Shown: piece after piece, positions 3,109-40,336 of the stretch | Position numbering within the stretch: position 1 is the stretch's first letter | Layout: every line of letters starts with the position of its first letter | NCBI RefSeq assembly: GCF_013003965.1 | Contig: NZ_CP053069.1 | Span: 4,061,419 to 4,125,418 of the forward strand | Reading direction: 5' to 3' | DNA length: 64,000 nucleotides | Source: Usitatibacter rugosus | Lineage (GTDB): Bacteria > Pseudomonadota > Gammaproteobacteria > Burkholderiales > Usitatibacteraceae | Position numbers and translations under genes: made by a program | Notes under the pieces: model-generated | Told to the model about the DNA's origin: nothing | The model's database searches: none | What the model saw: only the letters and a program-made list of their open reading frames with translations

Positions 3109-3863
3109 AGGCGACCTGGGGCCGGGCCCTCCCCTTCGTCGGGCCCGTGTTGCTCTTCATCGCGTGGGACCTCGTGGTGCGCACCGGCTTCATCAAGGCG
3201 ATCCTGCTGCCCGCTCCCTGGGACGCGCTCACGGCCCTGGTGAGCGGTCTCGCCGGCGGACCGCTGCTGATCGACTTCCTCGTGACCGTGAAGCGCACGC
3301 TGCAAGCTTTCGTGATCGCCGCGGTGATCGGCGTGCCGCTGGGGATCGTGCTGGGCAGCAACGAGCGGGCGTACCGAAGCGTGGAGTTCCTGATCGACTT
3401 CTTCCGCTCGACTCCGTCCTCGGCGCTGATCCCGCTCTTCCTGCTGATCTTCGGCGTGTCCGACATCAACAAGGTCGCGATCGCCGCATTCGGGGCGTTC
3501 CTGCTGGTCGTCTTCAACAGCGCCTACGGTGTGATCAATGCGAGGAAGCAGCGCGTGATGGCCGCGAAGGTGATGGGTGCCAATCGCTGGCAGATCTTCA
3601 AGGACGTGCTGGTGTGGGAGAGCCTGCAGCCGACTTTCGTGGGGCTGCGCAGCGCCGTCTCGATGGCGCTGGTGATCGTGATCGTGGCCGAGATGTTCAT
3701 CGGGTCCGACAACGGCCTGGGCCACCGCATCATCGATGCGCAGCAGGTCCTCAACGTGAAGAGCATGTACGCCGCCATCCTCGCCGCGGGCGTGCTGGGT
3801 TATGCCCTCAATGTGCTCTTCCTTTATATCGAGCGGCGGATCGTGCACTGGAGCGGACGATGA
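3105..3863 (+). CDS. ABC transporter permease (NitT/TauT type)
   Basis: Inner-membrane permease of 252 aa with about six hydrophobic segments. The cytoplasmic coupling loop AAKVMGANRWQIFKDVL (about 148-165) carries the family EAA/G pattern that docks on the ATPase. It resembles SsuC/TauC-type permeases in length and layout. Start and stop overlap both neighbours by four bases, so receptor, permease and ATPase are translationally coupled. The substrate is presumably that of the preceding receptor. Confidence 0.9.
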   Translation: MKATWGRALPFVGPVLLFIAWDLVVRTGFIKAILLPAPWDALTALVSGLAGGPLLIDFLVTVKRTLQAFVIAAVIGVPLGIVLGSNERAYRSVEFLIDFFRSTPSSALIPLFLLIFGVSDINKVAIAAFGAFLLVVFNSAYGVINARKQRVMAAKVMGANRWQIFKDVLVWESLQPTFVGLRSAVSMALVIVIVAEMFIGSDNGLGHRIIDAQQVLNVKSMYAAILAAGVLGYALNVLFLYIERRIVHWSGR

Positions 3864-4684
3864 ACGCGCGCGTCGTGAACCCGCCCTTCGAGCCGGATCC
3901 GCCGGCCCCGCCGTTCATCCCGGGCCCCACCGGCACCCACATCACGATCCGCGGGCTCACGAAGTTCTTCGCGGGCTGGCCGCTGTACGAGGACTTCGAC
4001 CTCGACATCCCCAAGGGCAAGATCGTCTCGGTCTTCGGGCCCAACGGCTGCGGCAAGTCGACGCTGATCAACATGATCTCGGGGCTGATCCCGATCGACC
4101 AGGGAGAGATCCTCTTCGACGGCAAGTCGCTCAAGGAAACGAAGATCGGCTACGTGTTCCAGAACTACCGCGAGGCGATGTTCCCGTGGATGCGCACCAT
4201 CGACAACATCGCCTATCCGCTGAAGCTCGAGGGCAAGTCCAAGCGCGAGGTCGATCGCCGGCTGGAGGAGCTGGTGGCGTCGTTCGACGTGAAATTCGAC
4301 CTCAAGCGCTACCCGTACGAGATGTCGGGCGGCCAGCAGCAGACGGCCTCGATCATGCGGGCCCTGGCGCCCAATCCGGAGGTGCTGTTCCTCGACGAGC
4401 CGTTCTCCGCGCTGGATTACGAGATGACACTCTTCATTCGTGAGAAGCTGCAGGAAGTCTTCATCGCCACGGGAACCACGATGATGCTGGTGTCGCATGA
4501 CCTCGAAGAAGCCGTGTACCTCGCCGACGAGGTGCTGCTGCTCACGAAGCGGCCCACCAAGGTGGCCGAGATCCTGCGCTACGGGGATCCGCGGCCGCGG
4601 ACCGTCGAGACGCTGACGTCGCCGTCCTTCATCGCGGCCAAGAAGCACAGCCTGGAGGTCTTCCAGCGCGAGGTCCGACGGTAG
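3860..4684 (+). CDS. ABC transporter ATP-binding protein (NitT/TauT type)
   Basis: ATPase of the importer, 274 aa. It shows Walker A GPNGCGKST (60-68), Q-loop region VFQNYREAMFPW, signature SGGQQQ (156-161), Walker B with Asp179-Glu180 (LFLDEPFSALD) and switch His in LVSHDLEEA. One oddity is that the signature continues as QQQTASIMRAL, with Thr and Ala where relatives usually have Arg and Val. The first 30 residues are a proline-rich extension. The stop abuts the next ATG (TAG then ATG), the only junction in this operon without overlap. Confidence 0.9.
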   Translation: MNARVVNPPFEPDPPAPPFIPGPTGTHITIRGLTKFFAGWPLYEDFDLDIPKGKIVSVFGPNGCGKSTLINMISGLIPIDQGEILFDGKSLKETKIGYVFQNYREAMFPWMRTIDNIAYPLKLEGKSKREVDRRLEELVASFDVKFDLKRYPYEMSGGQQQTASIMRALAPNPEVLFLDEPFSALDYEMTLFIREKLQEVFIATGTTMMLVSHDLEEAVYLADEVLLLTKRPTKVAEILRYGDPRPRTVETLTSPSFIAAKKHSLEVFQREVRR

Positions 4685-8136: not shown

Positions 8137-8790
8137 CTAGAAATTCATCATGACCATGAGCTGGAGGCGGCGCTCTCGATCCACGCCGCCCTCGATCCAG
8201 AAGTTGCCCTTGAAGAGGCGCAACATCGGGATGACCTCGGTCTCGTTCGGGAGGATGCCGCCGGTGTAGCGCCGCGCCTGCACGACGAACCAAACCGCGA
8301 GGTCCTCGTAGTCGTGCTCGAAGGGCGCGATGCCGAGTTGCACCGTGCTGACGCCATGCGTGAAGCGGCTCGACTGCCACCAGTCGGTCTTCGCGGACAT
8401 GTAGATGCGCCGCGTTTCGTAGTCGGCCTGCGCTCCGTAGCGCGCCGTGGCCACGCCCGAGAACGTGCCCCCGGCGTCGTAGCCGCGCGCCGAGGCGAGG
8501 CCGGCCCACGCAAAGACGTTGCCCTGTGCCGCCGGCAGGTTCCAGCGCTTCACGAGGTAGTTCGCCTGCACGCCGGCCATCTCGCGCTCGAACGACTTGT
8601 CGTCGGCGATGAGCTTCGTCGCCGCGAGGCCGCCCGACCACCAGTACGCGGGGGCGTAGAAGACCTGCGCTTCGCGCATGGTGTTGGTGCCGTACTCGGC
8701 CATGACCGTCCATCCGTCGGCGAACGCGATGGGCTTGGCCGACGCGAACCCGGGCAGCGCCAGGGCCAGCAGCAATGCGGATTTCCGCAT
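8137..8790 (-). CDS. Exported, probably outer-membrane beta-barrel protein of unknown function
   Basis: A 217-aa protein with a clear Sec signal peptide (MRKSALLLALALPGFASA). The mature part alternates aromatic and polar residues (MAEYGTNTMREAQVFYAPAY, RRIYMSAKTDWWQS) and ends in LMVMMNF; a terminal Phe is typical of beta-barrel proteins. I chose ATG at 8790 because AGGAG lies eight bases upstream; an in-frame ATG eight codons earlier lacks one. It is eight bases from the HMA gene, so the three are likely one operon. No family name can be given with confidence. Confidence 0.6.
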   Translation of the reverse strand: MRKSALLLALALPGFASAKPIAFADGWTVMAEYGTNTMREAQVFYAPAYWWSGGLAATKLIADDKSFEREMAGVQANYLVKRWNLPAAQGNVFAWAGLASARGYDAGGTFSGVATARYGAQADYETRRIYMSAKTDWWQSSRFTHGVSTVQLGIAPFEHDYEDLAVWFVVQARRYTGGILPNETEVIPMLRLFKGNFWIEGGVDRERRLQLMVMMNF

Positions 8791-8866
8791 GTCCAATCTC
8801 CTGAAAGAGTCCAAGGGGAAACGGCACGCGCCGGATCACCGGGCGTGCGGACACTTCAGCAGTGGG

Positions 8867-9247
8867 CTATTTCTGGAACCGCGCGTTCTTGATGCGAGGG
8901 GGTGGTGCGGTGGGCCGGGCGCGATCCGGCTCGGGGGGAAGTGCCAGGAGGACGGGAACCCAACCCTCCGATTTCGCGACGGGCGGCGCATCGTGCACCG
9001 GCACCGCGGGGACATCGACCTGCGGGTTGTCTCGCTGCTGCGCCTCGTCCTGGCAGGACTTCTGGCAGAGCGTCTTCGAGCCCGCGTCCGGCGCCTTGTG
9101 GCACGCGCCTTCGTCCATGGCCTGGTGCATCGCCTGCGGGGTTTCCCCCGTGAGCGGGCACGCGAAGCCGGCCATCGCCGCCTGCGAGGACAGCAGGGTG
9201 ACAGTTGCGAGCAGGGCCAGAAGTCGGCGGAAGGGGCGGCGGGTCAT
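8867..9247 (-). CDS. Exported Cys/His-containing protein of unknown function
   Basis: A 126-aa product with a signal peptide to about residue 26 (SSQAAMAG). The mature N-terminal half carries five cysteines and two histidines (FACPL, MHQAM, ACHKA, LCQKSC); the C-terminal half is proline-rich and basic (ALPPEPDRARPTAPPPR). The cysteine/histidine pattern and position upstream of the outer-membrane, MerP-like and MerT-like genes on the same strand suggest a periplasmic metal-binding role, as in small proteins of copper clusters. That is inference from composition and context; no domain is recognised. Confidence 0.55.
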   Translation of the reverse strand: MTRRPFRRLLALLATVTLLSSQAAMAGFACPLTGETPQAMHQAMDEGACHKAPDAGSKTLCQKSCQDEAQQRDNPQVDVPAVPVHDAPPVAKSEGWVPVLLALPPEPDRARPTAPPPRIKNARFQK

Positions 9248-30084: not shown

Positions 30085-31152
30085 ATGAAAGCTCCCCTTC
30101 GTTTTCCGCGCACATCCCTTGCCGTCCTCGCGCTCTGCGCGACGATTCCCGCATGGGCACAAACCTGCCGACCCGAGCGAACGAACACGGTCTGCGAGTT
30201 TGCTTACGATAAACCGGTCATCCAGAAGTGGACTGTTCCCGCCGGCGTCACCAAGGTCACCATCCTCGCGCATGGCGCCCGGGGCGGCGACGGGGGATGC
30301 CATGGCGGGGGTATCGGCGCGATCGTCGTTGCCGAAGATTTTCCGGTGAAGCCGGGTGAGGTTCTCTCGGTCCTGGTAGGACAGCAAGGGCAGCCGGCTC
30401 CGCTCCCCCGATGGAACACCAGTAACGGGGCCGGGGGCGGCGGCGGATCCTTCGTCTGGCGCGGCGACGGCGCGGCTTCGCTGCAGAACGTGTTGGTCGC
30501 CGCGGGCGGGGGTGGCGGCGCCGGTTGCGAAGGCGAGCCTCGCGGAGCGGCGTTCCATGCCAGCGGCGGCGCATTCAACGGCGTCGGCGGCGACCGCACA
30601 AGTGGAATCGCCGGGACGGGCGGAGGCGGCGGCGGAGGGGGCGACACCTTCAGGATCGGGAATTCGCCCGGCACGGGCGGCGGCGGCGGCGGTGGCATCG
30701 TGGGCGAGGGCAGGCAGGGTGCCTACTTCGCGGTCATCGCGGGCCGCGAGCCGGATCCTCAAGCGGGCAAAGGAGGCAAGAGCATCGCCTCCGGAGGCGC
30801 GGGTGGAGACGGTGGCTTCCAGGAACACCCGCCGGGCCGGGACAAGGGTCCCTTGCCGAACAGTGTCGGCGGGTACGGCGGATTCGGCGGCGGCGGCGGC
30901 GGCGGCGGGTGGAACGACAACAAAGTGCCGGGGAACTGCCAAGGACGTTTTGCCGGAGGTGGCGGCGGAGGCGGTGGCTACAGCGGAGGTGGGGGCGGCT
31001 ATTCCAAAGCCGGCGGTACCTGCGCGAAGACCGGCCACGGCGGAGGCGGCGGTGGATCGTTCGCGGCGGCCGGTGCCCAGAGAGGCGTGACCATGAAAGC
31101 GGGGGATAGGAAGTACGCCAACGGTTTCGTCTGGATCGCGTACGGGCCTTGA
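30085..31152 (+). CDS. Glycine-rich secreted protein, copy 1
   Basis: A 355-aa exported protein: signal peptide with cleavage after AWA, a short folded N-terminus (WTVPAGVTKVTILAHGARGGDGG), then long glycine-rich runs of four to nine Gly separated by short polar insertions. It resembles the glycine-rich domain (PF12810-like) best known from receptor kinases and also found in bacterial secreted proteins. Six or more cysteines are spread through it (GGCHGG, AGCEGE, GNCQGR, GTCAKT). SD GAGGAG precedes ATG. A close paralogue follows at 31215. Function is unknown; a surface or matrix role is a guess. Confidence 0.75.
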   Translation: MKAPLRFPRTSLAVLALCATIPAWAQTCRPERTNTVCEFAYDKPVIQKWTVPAGVTKVTILAHGARGGDGGCHGGGIGAIVVAEDFPVKPGEVLSVLVGQQGQPAPLPRWNTSNGAGGGGGSFVWRGDGAASLQNVLVAAGGGGGAGCEGEPRGAAFHASGGAFNGVGGDRTSGIAGTGGGGGGGGDTFRIGNSPGTGGGGGGGIVGEGRQGAYFAVIAGREPDPQAGKGGKSIASGGAGGDGGFQEHPPGRDKGPLPNSVGGYGGFGGGGGGGGWNDNKVPGNCQGRFAGGGGGGGGYSGGGGGYSKAGGTCAKTGHGGGGGGSFAAAGAQRGVTMKAGDRKYANGFVWIAYGP

Positions 31153-31214
31153 GCGGCCCTCACGCTCGCCCTTGTTGCAGCAACTTTTGTAGTTCAACCC
31201 ATCCGAGGAGTCTC

Positions 31215-32294
31215 ATGCAAGCTCCCCTTCGATTTCGGCGCATTTCCCTCAGTGTTCTCGCGCTCTGCGCATCCGTTTCCGCGTGGGGCCAAGCCTGCAG
31301 CTCCGCCGGCGGGAACGACATGGTCTGCAAGTTCGAGTTCGACAAGCCGGCCCTCCAGAAGTGGATCGTCCCAGCCGGCGTGACGAGCGTTTCCATCCTC
31401 GCGCATGGCGCGCGCGGAGGCGACGGCGGATGCCACGGCGGTGGCATCGGCGCTTTCGCCGCCGCGGAAGCATTCCCGGTCAAGCCGGGCGATGTGCTCA
31501 CCGTGCTCGTCGGGCAGTCAGGACAGCCGGCGCCTCTCCCGCGGTGGAACAACAGCAACGGCGCCGGTGGCGGCGGCGGATCGTTCGTGTGGCGCGGCGC
31601 GGGCCCGGCCTCGCTGCAGAACGTGATGATCGCCGCGGGCGGCGGCGGCGGCGCGGGTTGCGAGGGCGCGCCTCGCGGCGGCGCGTTCGGGGCCGGTGGT
31701 GGCGCGCTGAACGGCGTGGGCGGCGACCGCACGAGCGGGGTCGCCGGCACGAAAGGAGGCGGCGGTGGAGGCGGTGACCAGTACAAGGTCGGCAACTCGC
31801 CCGGCACCGGCGGCGGCGGTGGCGGTGGCATCGTCGGCGAAGGCTTTCAAGGCGCCTACTTCGCGCTCATCAAGGGCCGCGAGCCCGATCGTCTCGCGGG
31901 CAAAGGCGGCAAGAGCATCTCCGCCGGAGGCGAAGGCGGAATGGGCGGGTATGCGGAAAAGTCGCAAGCGGAAAGCCGGGGTGAAATCGACGCCGTCGCC
32001 AACAGCTTCGGCGGTTGGGGCGGATTCGGCGGCGGTGGCGGCGGCGGCGGGTGGTCCGACAACTCTCTCCCGGGGAACTGCCAGGGACGCTTCGCCGGAG
32101 GCGGCGGCGGTGGCGGTGGCTATAGCGGAGGCGGAGGCGGCTACAGCAAGTCGGGCGGCATCTGCTCCAAGACCAACCACGGCGGCGGCGGCGGCGGATC
32201 GTACACCGCGCCCGACGGCAAGAACGTGACGATGAAGGCCGGCGAGAGGAAGTACCAGAACGGCTGGATCTGGATCGCGTACACCAAGCCCTAG
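31215..32294 (+). CDS. Glycine-rich secreted protein, copy 2 (tandem paralogue)
   Basis: A 359-aa paralogue of the gene directly upstream. Signal peptide, cysteine positions, WRG/SFVW segment, GGDRTSG block and terminal WIAY motif are all shared; differences lie mainly in the charged inserts (AEKSQAESRGEIDAV replaces QEHPPGRDKG). The untranslated leader is also duplicated: GTAGTTCAA and CCGAGGAGTCTC occur before both ATGs at the same distances, so the duplication unit includes the ribosome site. It ends 21 bases before a convergent gene. Confidence 0.75.
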   Translation: MQAPLRFRRISLSVLALCASVSAWGQACSSAGGNDMVCKFEFDKPALQKWIVPAGVTSVSILAHGARGGDGGCHGGGIGAFAAAEAFPVKPGDVLTVLVGQSGQPAPLPRWNNSNGAGGGGGSFVWRGAGPASLQNVMIAAGGGGGAGCEGAPRGGAFGAGGGALNGVGGDRTSGVAGTKGGGGGGGDQYKVGNSPGTGGGGGGGIVGEGFQGAYFALIKGREPDRLAGKGGKSISAGGEGGMGGYAEKSQAESRGEIDAVANSFGGWGGFGGGGGGGGWSDNSLPGNCQGRFAGGGGGGGGYSGGGGGYSKSGGICSKTNHGGGGGGSYTAPDGKNVTMKAGERKYQNGWIWIAYTKP

Positions 32295-35178: not shown

Positions 35179-35394
35179 TCAGGCGCTGATTTCGAGCTCC
35201 ACGACCGCGCGTTCCCCGTCCAGGAGGCGTGCGGTGGCGAGGTGCGCGCGGATCGCGGCACGCACGCGCTCGATGGCTTCCACGGCGGTGGCGCCGCGCG
35301 ATTCGCAGCCGGGCAGCGTCATCGCGACGGCGACGTAGTCCCCACGCACGCGATGGACGGCGATGCGATAGCGGGGCGCTTCAGGAGGGGTCAT
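35179..35394 (-). CDS. Orphan HicB-like protein
   Basis: A 71-aa protein with the HicB/UPF0150 fold: RYRIAVHRVRGDYVAVAMTLPGCESRGATAVEAIERVRAAI is the partial RNase H-like antitoxin core (usual pattern PGCVSDGDTEEEA). No HicA toxin gene is adjacent on either strand, and the C-terminal DNA-binding part found in full HicB is missing. ATG at 35394 has GAGGTG upstream. It is divergent from the peptide cluster, so it may share its promoter region, but a link is not shown. Confidence 0.75.
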   Translation of the reverse strand: MTPPEAPRYRIAVHRVRGDYVAVAMTLPGCESRGATAVEAIERVRAAIRAHLATARLLDGERAVVELEISA

Positions 35395-35526
35395 GTCCAC
35401 CTCGCCATTGTTCTCTTCCCCTTCCGCCGCGCGCTCGGAATTCCCCGGCACCGAATGTCGATTCTCGCGAGCGTGCGCGCGCTGTCGTTCCTACGATGCA
35501 TCCATCGACAACCCCGGGAGACAGGG

Positions 35527-35688
35527 ATGAAAGAGCTCAGCTACGAGGAAGTGCTCCGCATCGCCGGTGGATTGCCGGTACCCGCGGCGCTCGACGAGAT
35601 CACCTACCGCGCGCCCACCAACCCTGACCCGGAGAGGTTGCTGCCGGGACGCATCCAGCAACCGCATTCCAGCGAGGAACATCCATGA
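35527..35688 (+). CDS. Double-glycine leader peptide precursor 1 (bacteriocin-like)
   Basis: A 53-aa precursor. The 15-residue leader ends LSYEEVLRIAGG, an exact fit to the class II bacteriocin/microcin leader pattern L-S-x2-E-(L/V)-x2-I-x-G-G. Cleavage after Gly15 would release a 38-residue core that begins LPVPAALDEITYRAP, has seven prolines and no cysteine. GGGAG lies seven bases before ATG. It overlaps the next precursor by ATGA. A C39 exporter is encoded downstream in the same direction. Activity (antibacterial, signalling or other) is not deducible from sequence. Confidence 0.8.
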   Translation: MKELSYEEVLRIAGGLPVPAALDEITYRAPTNPDPERLLPGRIQQPHSSEEHP

Positions 35689-35858
35689 AGGAAATCGAGA
35701 AGAAGGACGCACCGGAGGTTTCGGGCGGCGTTCGCGTTGACATCCAGATGCCGGAGCTTCCCGGCCCCATCTCACCCTGGCCCATCGAACCGTTTCCGCA
35801 GTTCCCGATGACGCCGTACAACCCGGATGCGCCGTTCAGCGATCCGCCGGCGGTTTGA
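35685..35858 (+). CDS. Double-glycine leader peptide precursor 2, proline-rich core
   Basis: A 57-aa precursor, easily missed because of its size. The leader KKDAPEVSGG ends at Gly15. The 42-residue core has 13 prolines and six aromatic residues (ISPWPIEPFPQFPMTPY), is acidic and lacks cysteine. It starts at ATG 35685, overlapping the stop of precursor 1, and ends with TGA at 35856-35858. Proline spacing recalls proline-rich antimicrobial peptides, but those are cationic with PRP motifs, absent here. Leader similarity to precursors 1 and 3 and location before the exporter support it as a real gene. Confidence 0.75.
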   Translation: MKEIEKKDAPEVSGGVRVDIQMPELPGPISPWPIEPFPQFPMTPYNPDAPFSDPPAV

Positions 35859-35882
35859 CCCTCGACATCCAGGAGACATGAC

Positions 35883-36065
35883 ATGAGCGAAACGACACCC
35901 CCCATCCCCAAGGGGCTAGACCCCGAACTCGTCGAGAAGATCTCAGGCGGCCTCGATCTGTGCTCGCCGGGAGACATCGACGGAATCATCCGCGGCCTGA
36001 GAAGCAACTACGACGAGCTGGTGGACTTCACGTCGTACATGTTCGACCGGATTGCGGGCAACTAA
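35883..36065 (+). CDS. Double-glycine leader peptide precursor 3, single-cysteine core
   Basis: A 60-aa precursor with a 23-residue leader ending DPELVEKISGG (Leu -8, Val -7 and Ile -4 relative to the cleavage point, Ser-Gly-Gly at the end). The predicted 37-residue core begins LDLCSPGDIDGIIRGL, is amphipathic and acidic, and has one cysteine that could form a disulfide dimer or receive a modification. AGGAG lies seven bases before ATG 35883. It sits 24 bases after precursor 2 and 32 before the CPBP gene, so all are likely one transcript. Confidence 0.78.
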   Translation: MSETTPPIPKGLDPELVEKISGGLDLCSPGDIDGIIRGLRSNYDELVDFTSYMFDRIAGN

Positions 36066-36097
36066 GCCTCGAGAGGGCGCGGCAACGCGCCCCTTCC

Positions 36098-36913
36098 ATG
36101 AAGTCATCGCCGACAGGGTTCCAGATCGCGTTCCTGCTGCTAGCCCTGGCGTTCGGGGCGATGCTTGCAACGACTTGGCTCGCGAGCGCAATCGCGCTTC
36201 CGAGTCCGTACTACGGCACCCTGGGTCATCTCGTCGCCATCCCATTTCAGTTTGCACTGGTGCTTGGCATACCGGCACTTCGGTCACTGGTGCTCGAGGG
36301 ATTCCATCACCCCGTATCCACTCCACAGCGCTTCGAAGCCCTGGCTTTGGCCGGCGGCAAAGTGGTGCTCACCTTCGGCCTGTGGGGAGCCATCGCCCTG
36401 TGGGGACTGCATGTAACGCATCGAGCCAACGACGTAACGGCCTTTGGATTCCTGACCGAACCAACGGCCATGGACGAGCACTACTTTGCGGCCTGGGGAT
36501 TGGTGGGGGCCGCGTATGCAATATCACTCGGGCCACTCATCGAAGAGGTGCTCTATCGCGGCGTGCTGTACCGCCTGTGGGAGCGGCAGTGGGGTTGGGT
36601 TGCAGCAGCGCTGCTGTCATCAATCGTTTTCTCGTTGGTCCATCCCCATAACCTGATTCAGACCTTCTTCTCCGGAATCCTCTACGCCTGCCTCTTCCAC
36701 CGCACAGGATCGATTTGGGCAACGACGCTGTGCCACGCGACATACAACCTGCTCATTGCCTGGCCGCTTCTCGGCCACGTGCTGTTACTCAAACCGGCCG
36801 ACGCATCGACAAGCCTCATTCCGTGGACTGCGAACTTGATCTGCCTCCCTCTCGCGATCGTTGCGTTTGTCCTGTACGTACGACTGGCTCTCGCTGCACC
36901 TGAGCGCACCTGA
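36098..36913 (+). CDS. CPBP family intramembrane metalloprotease (Abi/CAAX-like)
   Basis: A 271-aa integral membrane protein with about eight helices. All CPBP motifs are intact: Glu149-Glu150-x3-Arg154 (IEEVLYRG), Phe-x3-His182 (FSLVHPHN) and His213-x3-Asn217 (CHATYN). CPBP proteins often give self-immunity in bacteriocin loci (PlnI, SkkI) or process prenylated or peptide substrates. Placed between the precursors and the exporter, it is the best immunity candidate. Its codons look less GC-rich than those of neighbours, hinting at separate origin. No strong SD precedes ATG 36098. Confidence 0.88.
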   Translation: MKSSPTGFQIAFLLLALAFGAMLATTWLASAIALPSPYYGTLGHLVAIPFQFALVLGIPALRSLVLEGFHHPVSTPQRFEALALAGGKVVLTFGLWGAIALWGLHVTHRANDVTAFGFLTEPTAMDEHYFAAWGLVGAAYAISLGPLIEEVLYRGVLYRLWERQWGWVAAALLSSIVFSLVHPHNLIQTFFSGILYACLFHRTGSIWATTLCHATYNLLIAWPLLGHVLLLKPADASTSLIPWTANLICLPLAIVAFVLYVRLALAAPERT

Positions 36914-36914
36914 G

Positions 36915-38168
36915 ATGTCGAGCCCGCTCTTCCGCGCCGAGGCGCACGACTCCCGCGCGACCTCCTGGCTGGGCACGATCGTCCTGATGCGCCCCGTGCC
37001 GACGGTCGTGATGACCGCGGCGGCCTCGGCGGTCTCGCTTGCCATCGTTGCCTTCCTGGTGTGGGGCGAATCGACCAACAAGGCGCGCGTCACCGGCTTC
37101 CTCACGCCCACGAGCGGCGTTGCGAGAGTGGTGGCGACGCAGTCCGGCGTGATCGAGTCGCGCTTCGTGGCCGAGGGCGACTCGGTGGCGAAGGGTGCGC
37201 CGCTGCTGTCGCTCGTGGATCCGCGCGCCACGGATGAGCACGGAACCGTCGGTGCCCAGGTGACGACGAGCCTGCGCGAGCGGCAACGCGCGTTGTCGAG
37301 GCAGCGCGACCTCGCCGGGACGACGTATCTCGCCGATCTCGAGTCCCTCGCGACGCGCCACGCGAAGCTCGATGCCGAGGCGCGGAAGCTGGACGACGAG
37401 ATCGACGCGATGCGCTCGCGTTCGAGGCTCGCCGCCGAAGAGATCGAGAGGGCCGAGGAGCTGGAGCGCAGTGGCTTCGCAGCGCGTGCGATGACCGACC
37501 GCAAGCGCGACGAATCGCTGGACGTGCGCATCCGCATCTCGGCGCTCGAGCGCGCCCGCGACGCGGCCCATCGGGAGGCGGAGGCCTTGCAGTCGGAAGC
37601 AGCGGCGGCGAAGGCACGGTACCTCGCGCAACTCGCGGCTCTCGACGGACAGCGGGCGTCGCTGGGCCAGGAGCGAGCGGAGCGCAGCGCCGCCTACCGA
37701 TCGGTGATCACCGCGCCGCACGCCGGCATTGTCGCGTCGATGCTGGTGGAGGCGGGGCAGGCCGCTACGCAGGGAACGCCGCTGCTCACATTGCTTCCCG
37801 CGGACGTGAAGCTCGAGGCGCATTTGTTCGCGCCCTCGCGCTCCATCGGCTTCGTGCGCACCGGGCAGGCCGTGCTCCTGCGCTATCCCGCCTTCCCCGC
37901 GCAGAAGTTCGGCTCGCACCATGCGCACGTCACCGCCGTCTCGCGAAGCGCATTGGCACCCGGTGACCTCGGATACACGCCGGCCGACGGCAACCGCGAA
38001 TCGCTCTATCGCATCCGCGCGACACTCGACTCGCAGGCGATGCTCGCCTACGGAAAGCCCGAGCCGCTGCAGGCGGGCATGCTCGTCGAAGCGGACATCC
38101 TGCTCGACCGGCGGCGACTCATCGAGTGGATCTTCGATCCGCTGCTGAGCCTCTCGGGGCGCCTGTGA
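36915..38168 (+). CDS. HlyD-family secretion adaptor of the peptide exporter
   Basis: A 417-aa periplasmic adaptor anchored by one N-terminal transmembrane helix (about 30-50). It has a lipoyl-like half (VATQSGVIESRFVAEGDSVAKGAPLL), a long coiled-coil hairpin (about 110-265, rich in Arg/Glu/Ala), the second lipoyl half (VITAPHAGIVASMLVEAGQAATQGTPLLTLLP) and a beta-barrel domain. This is the CvaA/HlyD type that couples a C39 ABC exporter to an outer-membrane channel such as TolC, which is not encoded here. It starts one base after the CPBP stop and overlaps the exporter by TGATG. Confidence 0.92.
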   Translation: MSSPLFRAEAHDSRATSWLGTIVLMRPVPTVVMTAAASAVSLAIVAFLVWGESTNKARVTGFLTPTSGVARVVATQSGVIESRFVAEGDSVAKGAPLLSLVDPRATDEHGTVGAQVTTSLRERQRALSRQRDLAGTTYLADLESLATRHAKLDAEARKLDDEIDAMRSRSRLAAEEIERAEELERSGFAARAMTDRKRDESLDVRIRISALERARDAAHREAEALQSEAAAAKARYLAQLAALDGQRASLGQERAERSAAYRSVITAPHAGIVASMLVEAGQAATQGTPLLTLLPADVKLEAHLFAPSRSIGFVRTGQAVLLRYPAFPAQKFGSHHAHVTAVSRSALAPGDLGYTPADGNRESLYRIRATLDSQAMLAYGKPEPLQAGMLVEADILLDRRRLIEWIFDPLLSLSGRL

Positions 38169-40336
38169 TGGAGGCGCTCGGCCGGCTCGAGCTCGGATTG
38201 CGCCAGAAGCTGCCCGTCTTCCTGCAGACGGAGGCCGCGGAGTGCGGGCTGGCCAGCCTCGGCATGATCGCCAACTTCCACGGCCACCGCATCGACCTCG
38301 CTGGGCTTCGCCGGCGCTTCACCGTGTCGCTCAAGGGCGCGACGCTCTCGTACCTGATGCAGATCGCCGGGGCATTGCACCTCACGCCGCGGCCGCTGCG
38401 GCTGGAGTTGGCCGAGCTCTCGAGCCTGCGCACGCCGTGCATCCTGCACTGGGACCTGAACCACTTCGTGGTGCTGCGCTCGGCGGATGCGAGGCACGCC
38501 GTCATCCACGACCCGGCCTTCGGCGTGCGGCGCCTCACGATGGCCGAAGTCTCGAAGCACTTCACGGGCATCGCGCTCGAGGCCACGCCCACCTCGGAGT
38601 TCAAGGCGCATGACGAGCGCCGGAGGCTGCGACTTCGGGATCTCACCGGGTCCGTAGTGGGCCTGAAACGATCGCTCCTCCAGGTGCTGCTGCTCGCCCT
38701 CGCGCTGCAGGGCTTCGCGATGATCGCGCCGTTCTACATGCAATGGGTCGTGGATGGCGCGGTGGTCTCCGCGGATCGCGACCTGCTCACGGTGCTCGGT
38801 CTCGGCTTCCTCCTGCTGGCCGGCGTCCAGGTCGCCGTCTCGGCGCTGCGATCGTGGGTGGTGCTCTATCTCGGCACGATGCTGAACCTGCAGTGGCTCG
38901 CGAACGTCTTCTCGCACCTGCTGCGGCTGCCGGTGAGCTACTTCGAGAAGCGCCACCTGGGCGACGTGGTCTCGCGCTTCGGAGCGGTCGGCAACATCCA
39001 GCGCACGCTGACCTCGAGCTTCGTGGAAGCGATGATCGACGGCCTCATGGCCGCGGTCACGCTCGGCATGATGCTGGCCTACAGTGGCCTCCTCACGATG
39101 GTGGCGGTCGCGAGCGTCACGGCTTACGGGCTCCTCCGGTGGGTCTTCTATGACCCGTTGCGGCGTGCGACCGAGGAACACATCGTGCACACCGCGAAGC
39201 AGCAGAGCCATTTCCTGGAGACGGTGCGCGGCGTGCAGTCGATCAAGCTCTTCGGGCGCCAGGAGGAACGGCGCTCGCGGTGGCTGAACCTCGTGGTGGA
39301 CGCGACCAACCGCGACCTCGCGACGCAGAAGCTCTCGCTCGGCTTTCGCTCCGCCAACGGGCTCGTCTTCGGCGCCGAGCGGGTCACCGTGATCTGGATC
39401 GGCGCACTGCTCGTCCTCGACAACGCGTTCTCGGTCGGGATGCTGTTCGCGTTCGTCGCGTACAAGGAGCAGTTCTCGGCGCGCGTGGGCGGGCTCATCG
39501 ACAAGATGATCGAGCTGCGGATGCTGAACCTCCAGGCCGAGCGCCTCGCCGACATCGTGCTCACGCCGCCGGAGGAGGCCGGCCCCGCGCATGCGCCGGA
39601 CGAGATCGATGCGTCTCTTGAAGTGCGCGATCTCTCGTTCCGCTATTCCGACTCCGAGCCTTTCGTCGTACGCAACTGCTCCTTCCGCATCGAGCCCGGG
39701 GAGTCGGTAGCGATCGTCGGGCCTTCGGGCGGCGGGAAGACGACGTTGCTCAAGCTCATGCTCGGGCTCCTCTCGCCCACCGACGGGAAGATCCTGGCCG
39801 GCGGCATCGACATCGAGAAGCTCGGCATCGACCACTACCGCAAGCTCGTCGGCACGGTGATGCAGGACGACCAGCTCTTCGCGGGATCGATCGCCGACAA
39901 CGTGAGCTTCTTCGATCCGACGCCGAGCCAGGAGGCGGTGGAACGCTGCGCGCGCCTGGCCGCCGTGCATGACGACATCGCCGCGATGCCGATGGGCTAC
40001 AACACGCTGATCGGCGACATGGGCGCGGCGCTCTCCGGAGGGCAGCGCCAACGCATCCTGCTCGCACGTGCACTCTACAAGCAGCCGCGAATCCTGTTCC
40101 TCGACGAGGCGACGAGCGCGCTCGACGTGCAGAAGGAGCGCGCCGTGAACGATGCGATTCGCGAGCTTGCGCTGACGCGCATCCTCATCGCGCACCGGCC
40201 GGAGACCATCGCCTCCGCGGGCCGCGTCATCGTGCTGCAGGGCGGACGCGTCTCCCAGGACCTGCGGCAAGTCCCGCCAGCACCAGCGTCGCGAGGCTCC
40301 ACGCCACCACCGGGACCAGCCACAAGGACGGCGTGA
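38168..40336 (+). CDS. Peptidase-containing ABC exporter (C39, CvaB type)
   Basis: A 722-aa fusion: C39 peptidase (1-140), six-helix membrane domain (about 165-440) and ATPase (about 480-700). The protease triad is intact: Cys26 (QTEAAECGLASL, with oxyanion Gln20), His99 (LNHFVVL) and Asp115 (IHDPAFG). It should therefore cut the double-glycine leaders and export the cores. The ATPase has GPSGGGKTT, LSGGQRQR and ILFLDEATSALD. The last 20 residues (PPAPASRGSTPPPGPATRTA) are a low-complexity tail encoded across the 110-base overlap with the convergent MFS gene. Confidence 0.95.
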   Translation: MEALGRLELGLRQKLPVFLQTEAAECGLASLGMIANFHGHRIDLAGLRRRFTVSLKGATLSYLMQIAGALHLTPRPLRLELAELSSLRTPCILHWDLNHFVVLRSADARHAVIHDPAFGVRRLTMAEVSKHFTGIALEATPTSEFKAHDERRRLRLRDLTGSVVGLKRSLLQVLLLALALQGFAMIAPFYMQWVVDGAVVSADRDLLTVLGLGFLLLAGVQVAVSALRSWVVLYLGTMLNLQWLANVFSHLLRLPVSYFEKRHLGDVVSRFGAVGNIQRTLTSSFVEAMIDGLMAAVTLGMMLAYSGLLTMVAVASVTAYGLLRWVFYDPLRRATEEHIVHTAKQQSHFLETVRGVQSIKLFGRQEERRSRWLNLVVDATNRDLATQKLSLGFRSANGLVFGAERVTVIWIGALLVLDNAFSVGMLFAFVAYKEQFSARVGGLIDKMIELRMLNLQAERLADIVLTPPEEAGPAHAPDEIDASLEVRDLSFRYSDSEPFVVRNCSFRIEPGESVAIVGPSGGGKTTLLKLMLGLLSPTDGKILAGGIDIEKLGIDHYRKLVGTVMQDDQLFAGSIADNVSFFDPTPSQEAVERCARLAAVHDDIAAMPMGYNTLIGDMGAALSGGQRQRILLARALYKQPRILFLDEATSALDVQKERAVNDAIRELALTRILIAHRPETIASAGRVIVLQGGRVSQDLRQVPPAPASRGSTPPPGPATRTA

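Follow-up and report, generated by a model that had tools for sequence, protein, structure and literature searches.

A six-gene operon of Usitatibacter rugosus coding for three double-glycine precursors, a CPBP protease and a C39 exporter, and a peptide-CPBP pair that recurs in a distant gammaproteobacterial family

A stretch of 64,000 nucleotides (nt) of the Usitatibacter rugosus genome (NCBI RefSeq assembly GCF_013003965.1, contig NZ_CP053069.1, forward-strand positions 4,061,419 to 4,125,418), referred to here as the window, contains an operon of six tightly packed genes, all on the + strand, at 35527-40336 in whole-stretch numbering. It codes for three small double-glycine (GG) precursors (open reading frames [ORFs] 1 to 3), a CPBP intramembrane protease, an HlyD-type adaptor, and a C39 peptidase ABC exporter. 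Sequence comparison establishes the gene set, its intact motifs and conserved GG residues, and the linkage of ORF3 with CPBP in two distant families; judged in this way, the ORF3-CPBP pair is a wider partnership that occurs in two gene layouts. The features are as follows.

35527-35688, + strand: ORF1, GG precursor, 53 amino acids (aa), leader MKELSYEEVLRIAGG, predicted cut after Gly15, core start 35572, LPVPAALDEITYRAP
35685-35858, + strand: ORF2, GG precursor, 57 aa, leader MKEIEKKDAPEVSGG, predicted cut after Gly15, core start 35730
35883-36065, + strand: ORF3, GG precursor, 60 aa, leader end PELVEKISGG, predicted core start 35952, LDLCSP
36098-36913, + strand: CPBP (Rce1-like) intramembrane protease, 271 aa, with EExxxR, FxxxH and HxxxN intact, adjoining ORF3
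36915-38168, + strand: HlyD-type periplasmic adaptor, 417 aa, Pfam HlyD_3
38168-40336, + strand: C39 peptidase ABC exporter, 722 aa counted from ATG, with C26/H99/D115
35636-35663, + strand: stem-loop, GGTTGCTG-12 nt-CAGCAACC, just 5' of the ORF2 ribosome site

Organization of the operon and its precursors

From ORF1 to the C39 gene, the junctions are a 4-nt overlap, 24 nt, 32 nt, 1 nt, and a 1-nt overlap, in agreement with a first-pass annotation made from the sequence alone, in which starts and stops were said to overlap or to lie within about 32 bases. The close spacing also argues for the single transcription unit proposed there, and no promoter or terminator signal adds to it, as the operon scan gives 0 promoter-like and three terminator-like sites (shuffle mean 2.1), neither above shuffles. 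The unidirectional order of three GG precursors, CPBP, HlyD, and C39 genes is confirmed by coordinates, Pfam matches, and conserved GG residues. The adaptor matches HlyD_3 (E 3.5e-18), and the exporter matches Peptidase_C39 (E 1.1e-31) together with ABC_membrane and ABC_tran; all three residues of the reported C39 triad (Cys26/His99/Asp115) are located in the exporter, as is Gln20. Its best NCBIfam match is TIGR03796 at 490 bits, under the 853-bit cut-off. The CPBP protein matches Pfam PF02517 (Rce1-like/CPBP, E 3.5e-19) and is the sole immunity candidate in the cassette; it has all the metal motifs attributed to it, their residues being invariant in 10/10 aligned CPBPs. The genome (4,563,145 bases, a single contig) codes for three C39 domains and eight TolC-like proteins (16 OEP domain matches in eight pairs), none of the latter inside the cassette.

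The three precursors have differing cores, as first noted, for which the expected lack of a known family is upheld: neither Pfam nor NCBIfam yields a match to window ORF1-3 at E up to 1. GG is invariant in the aligned rows of ORF3 (10/10), ORF1 (9/9), and ORF2 (10/10), and is kept in every further copy read from L139, L141, L104, and L140 (for ORF1, beyond the nine aligned homologues, in L139, L141, and L140); chance GG motifs were rejected as an explanation, since GG is conserved across 13 genomes. The ORF1 leader is not the exact fit to the bacteriocin pattern that it was taken for, because it departs by one residue (Val9) from the Gram-negative GG motif M[R/K]ELX3E[I/L]X2[I/V]XG[G/A] as quoted in PMC9200625, a motif found in exact form in 0/28 family precursors screened. 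The unmodified cores are predicted to begin with LPVPAAL (ORF1, about 4243 Da), VRVDIQM (ORF2, about 4688 Da), and LDLCSPG (ORF3, about 4153 Da). The net charges of the window cores are -3, -4, and -4, and all three are acidic. This bears on an explanation that we consider improbable, in which the producer is itself the target of the peptides, as in stationary-phase lysis promoted by the Nap peptides of another betaproteobacterial group; the three bacteriocin-like peptides described there promote autolysis and have no detectable antimicrobial activity (PMC11798529), and three GG peptides are likewise present here, but the Nap peptides are cationic and the abstract of PMC11798529 mentions no CPBP protein.

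ORF1 is conserved in its leader and in the first half of its core (LPPGAALDEVxYRAP). The ORF2 leader is conserved, and its core is proline-rich (31% Pro) and variable, with a ratio of nonsynonymous to synonymous divergence (dN/dS) of 0.94 between the window and relative L023 (159 sites). ORF2 has extra copies, as a tandem pair in L139 and after CPBP in L023. Neither ORF1 nor ORF2 was seen outside the window's family in a narrower search covering 28 genomes for ORF1 and the collected loci for both. In 11/11 loci, ORF2 (first copy each) is preceded at 18-24 nt by the end of an anchored stem of 6-8 bp, whose arms vary with pairing kept (GGTTGC/GCAACC, GGTCGC/GCGACC, GGGCCGCC/GGCGGCCC); depending on the locus, 3 to 133 of 1000 shuffles attain a stem of that length. 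The stem-loop occurs once per genome in 3/3 genomes, and no stem of comparable strength precedes the extra ORF2 copies of L023 and L139. It lies within the 3' end of ORF1 in the window and L023, so that the last part of ORF1 may be conserved here for the sake of the RNA, and is intergenic in L096, where ORF1 stops earlier. It may act in message processing or in dosing of the genes behind it.

ORF3 has a core of 37 residues with one Cys and a C-terminal helix, YDELVDFTSYMFDRIAG; among its aligned rows, Cys follows soon after GG in most, and the helix reads YxxLVDFTSHVIERVAG. An AlphaFold model places a helix at residues 29-57 (mean predicted local distance difference test score 75, predicted template modeling score 0.41) and supports only the presence of a C-terminal helix. 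The 32 ORF3-family members tested fall into no NCBIfam or Pfam family (best E 0.023 and 0.046), a PDB profile search gives weak matches alone (best E 0.015), and no match was found for window ORF3 against phages or for the L184 ORF3-like peptide against plasmids. ORF3 and CPBP are both under purifying selection between the window and L023 (dN/dS 0.20 and 0.16, one pair measured), and L006 contains a second ORF3-CPBP pair, duplicated together, whose ORF3 is without Cys at the usual place.

ORF3-like peptides beside CPBP genes in a distant family

A class-wide search of 369 genomes with an ORF3 model built from the window's family alone gives three matches besides the window, of which one is credible, that in G579 (E 6e-6), where the peptide adjoins a CPBP gene; the others, in G567 and G470 (E 0.003 and 0.009), lie inside long frames and were rejected. 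When the G579 peptide is added to the model, 296 genomes of its order yield 45 matches, and 44 genomes were kept, of which 43 belong to a single family and G817 to a different one. A match in G786 (E 0.007), where no CPBP was found, was rejected as chance. There is one peptide match per genome in 43/44 and two in G1039. Profile-to-profile alignment of the peptides from the two groups gives a probability of 98.7% (E 2.8e-16). A combined model finds the window and G579 in the class sample (2/340 genomes), in which absence elsewhere is weakly supported because class samples contained few genomes per family.

CPBP lies beside the ORF3-like peptide in 42/42 loci checked of the 44 (40 fetched at length and two short loci), on the opposite strand and tail-to-tail. 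Each of the 40 long loci has one CPBP open frame, and the stop of the nearer peptide is -40 to +85 nt from the CPBP stop (39 loci measured); the peptide start in L205 is cut off. At L188, two ORF3-like peptides (2413-2649 and 3793-4011) flank a single CPBP gene. Neither CPBP nor an ORF3-like peptide was found in twelve control exporter loci of the same family (179 kb). Since a CPBP link outside the window's family exists for ORF3 only, the three precursors are not equivalent, and a reading of the operon as three equivalent bacteriocins was rejected.

In the distant peptides, the leader ends in GG in 21 and GA in 19 of 40, one core Cys is present in 39/40, and the cores are acidic with a median net charge of -5. 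Their C-terminal 22 residues are strongly constrained, with mean nonsynonymous (pN) and synonymous (pS) differences of 0.17 and 0.75 (780 pairs from 40 peptides), with pN 0.30 in the leader. The pair could be a frozen neighborhood within the distant family, and adjacency would then reflect shared locus ancestry alone, without joint function. We judge this very unlikely, as the two genes run in the same direction within an operon in one of the families and converge in the other, the pair is duplicated in L006, and purifying selection acts on the distant-family peptide and on both genes in the window's genus.

The same data bear on a second role for CPBP, to which we assign a clearly smaller chance than to immunity, namely that it is a second maturation protease that recognizes and trims the ORF3 C-terminal helix, with C39 removing the leader, leaving a short Cys-containing signal. 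The ORF3 C-terminus is the best-conserved core element in the two distant families, CPBP motifs are kept (10/10 in the window's family; in the distant loci the strict third motif is present in 36/40, with HxxxD in the other four), and one peptide per genome and one CPBP per locus are the rule. The logic is comparable to that of CAAX proteases proposed in SilCR or Agr signal processing. As described in PMC9298176, deletion of SilX abolishes activity, mature signal peptide rescues it, and the strain stays insensitive; SagE is also cited there as a processor, along with an Agr role in Staphylococcus aureus. However, the cassette is without a sensor kinase, receptor, or regulator, CPBP acts within the membrane and ORF3 has no obvious transmembrane segment, and the rapid divergence and apparent module exchange in the genus (see below) fit competition better.

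No match to HlyD or C39 is present in the 40 distant loci, and export would take place in trans. A C39 domain is present in 12/12 of the peptide-bearing distant genomes first tested, a HlyD-like frame precedes it in 12/12 of these exporter loci (phmmer E 3e-16 to 8e-51), and a leader-pattern screen finds no convincing GG peptide beside them. C39 matches occur in 63/107 genomes of the distant family, including strong ones (E 2e-20 or better) in 41/43 peptide-bearing genomes; G1001 has a weak match and G1011 is not among the matches listed. Seven genomes have a strong exporter and two a weak exporter without the peptide, 17 among the genomes listed have neither, and 24 exporter-negative genomes are outside the table, in which each genome's place in the peptide sample is inferred and counts are not adjusted for kinship. 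Tentatively, and with somewhat less confidence than for the maturation role itself, ORF3 may define a new exported-peptide family with a GG leader, one Cys, and a helix like YEGLVxATSHIIERVA, matured at both ends: the leader would be cut off by C39, and the helix would be removed or read by a dedicated CPBP partner. If true, Proteobacteria would have a two-protease system for signaling or warfare, one that is widespread in a gammaproteobacterial family and there has its exporter in trans.

Conservation and divergence in the window's family

At least one precursor is present in 13/28 genomes of the window's family, comprising 6/6 of the window's genus, 7/8 of a second genus, and 0/13 and 0/1 of two others. 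Family-wide models match ORF3 in 12/28 and ORF1 in 13/28 genomes, the latter including a match in G005 (E 0.006) that was rejected as chance because it sits inside a 659-aa frame; G005 does have ORF3. In an order-wide sample, ORF3 is present in 6/399 genomes, every one from the window's family. Comparison of the window proteins by tblastn with 83 loci (80 exporter loci and three own-genome loci) finds an unchanged order of ORF1, ORF2, ORF3, and CPBP in seven relatives (L023, L009, L038, L007, L006, L008, and L010), and precursors and CPBP are also read in L096, L139, and L141 and in the partial contigs L104 and L140. The exporter frame is full-length and open in 10/10 relatives with the whole gene on the contig. 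The homologous loci were searched for frameshifts and lost GG residues, which the first-pass annotation had named as evidence against its reading, and GG positions, gene order, and exporter frames are all kept. Of the relatives that have a name, Betaproteobacteria bacterium GR16-43 (L023) is the closest seen, its exporter being 92% identical.

Eight exporter loci with 49-60% identity (L106-L113, some with short upstream sequence) have no CPBP or ORF1-3 by tblastn. L113 and L114 lie in one genome and are two further C39 exporters, one paired with HlyD and lacking CPBP, the other a C39-ABC gene directly before a second ABC gene, resembling an NHLP-type pair. At L055, a weak CPBP-like frame (8553-9125, profile E 6e-5 to 0.001) without an obvious EExxxR lies downstream of a 57% identical exporter.

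The cassette adjoins a fusA-like gene in 5/5 genus genomes with contigs reaching that site, and its parts diverge at different rates. Exporter identity to that of the window is 92% in G004, 86% in G003, 80% (partial) in G005, and 79% in G001, and CPBP identity across the same genus is 64, 31, 27, and 25%. Compared with L023 and L096, respectively, identities are 92 and 86% for C39, 64 and 31% for CPBP, 91 and 89% for fusA, 71 and 47% for HlyD, and 47 and 45% for the neighboring gene resembling the major facilitator superfamily (MFS). Background neighboring frames, a list that leaves out the fast MFS-like gene, have a median identity of 81% to L023 (n=18, minimum 32, two below the 64.4 of CPBP) and 75% to L096 (n=8, minimum 52, none below CPBP). 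Synonymous divergence (dS) from L023 is 1.04 for ORF3 and 1.55 for CPBP (near saturation), versus 0.45 for fusA, 0.45 for ORF2, 0.56 for C39, 0.76 for HlyD, and 0.28 for ORF1, and it is raised in all four quarters of CPBP. G+C content at third codon positions (GC3) of CPBP is 70% in the window, 71% in L096, and 84% in L023, with 79-91% for HlyD and C39. From these patterns, we read the ORF3-CPBP module as apparently replaced in place and exchanged like toxin-immunity pairs.

The neighboring genes (fusA, HicB, and MFS) were named by eye. An HicB-like antitoxin-type gene (35179-35396, - strand) lies upstream of the operon, and the last exporter codons overlap the 3' end of the - strand MFS-like gene (40227-40336). 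Farther upstream, 30085-31152 and 31149-32294 are a tandem pair coding for similar, very glycine-rich proteins with N-termini that, by eye, resemble signal peptides.

A microcin-like reading and known systems

We give an even chance to the operon being a class II microcin-like system in which ORF3 is the active helical peptide and CPBP its immunity protein. The C39 exporter, HlyD, and a TolC-type channel encoded elsewhere would cut the three precursors after GG and export three small acidic cores. ORF3 would be the main active peptide, with its helix and one Cys near the new N-terminus, and would probably act on membranes or a membrane target; CPBP, in the inner membrane, would protect the producer against its antibacterial action, and ORF1 and ORF2 would be co-exported helper or partner peptides. 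Pore-forming colicins are laid out with a convergent gene for a membrane immunity protein. The microcin-like reading draws on the pairing of ORF3-like peptides with a convergent CPBP in all distant loci checked and the lack of CPBP in controls, on the co-occurrence of peptide and exporter in the distant family, on the duplicated pair in L006 and the signs of module exchange, and on the recurrence of precursors in the window's family together with the TolC-like proteins of its genome. CAAX/CPBP proteins in bacteriocin loci are also reported to give immunity, in PMC9298176 citing Kjos 2010.

Several observations weigh against it. ORF3 and CPBP are under purifying and not positive selection (in the one pair), and such strong conservation of the C-terminal helix in the 40 distant peptides is odd for an arms race. 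HlyD and the MFS-like neighbor are also fast-diverging, so divergence speed is not peculiar to CPBP, and in the comparison with L023 conservation is lower for two background genes than for CPBP. The related exporters of L106-L113 manage without CPBP, and the peptide is absent from many genomes of the distant family. Typical class II bacteriocins are cationic, and the cores here are acidic. At 271 aa, CPBP is also larger than the 51-216 aa range of known microcin immunity proteins given in PMC9746304.

Peptide family and protease family mark each other in the distant loci checked and in the window's family. The pair is a search rule for unrecognized exported peptides and allows a clean test between protection and processing as the role of CPBP proteins at loci of this type. 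PMC9298176 describes CPBP roles in immunity, processing, and reception, and SilX is argued there to process a signal without immunity. By the count in PMC9746304, ten class II microcins are verified, all from a few enterobacteria, and the low sequence similarity among their immunity proteins makes further systems difficult to recognize. No description of such a system was found in the open-licence literature, mostly titles and abstract openings.

The closest known systems are the class II microcins (the MccV and MccE492 group), which, as described in PMC9746304, share the GG/GA precursor, C39 triad, HlyD-type adaptor, an inner-membrane partner gene near the precursor, and, putatively, a separately supplied TolC; a precursor with a GG or GA leader, a C39 exporter with Cys/His/Asp, and a membrane fusion protein are all present here. 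In contrast, there are three precursors per operon here, the partner is a CPBP protease, the host is outside Enterobacterales, and the ORF3-family matches to the microcin models reach at best E 0.046 for MccV (2 of 32 members) and 0.087 for E492 (1 of 32); no core similarity to microcins is seen at E <= 0.02 in Pfam/NCBIfam (window ORF1-3 and 32 ORF3-family members, against family models and not individual verified microcins). In SilX/SilCR and MroQ/Agr, too, a CAAX/CPBP protease acts together with a small peptide that is secreted (PMC9298176), but these are Gram-positive quorum systems with sensor kinases, of which there are none in this cassette. The C39-ABC exporter is also common to NHLP export (TIGR03796) and type I secretion HlyB families, although its score is well short of the NHLP cut-off. 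NHLP leaders are long, and the leaders here are of the short GG type. In the Abi/CPBP immunity of the Gram-positive pln and skk loci, CPBP proteins with intact catalytic motifs lie next to GG-leader peptides; here, the hosts are Gram-negative, the cores acidic, and the distant family convergent with its exporter elsewhere. The exporter unit belongs to a known kind; the novelty lies in the three families of precursors, in ORF3 and CPBP as a marker pair that two distant families share in two layouts, and in the exporter in trans.

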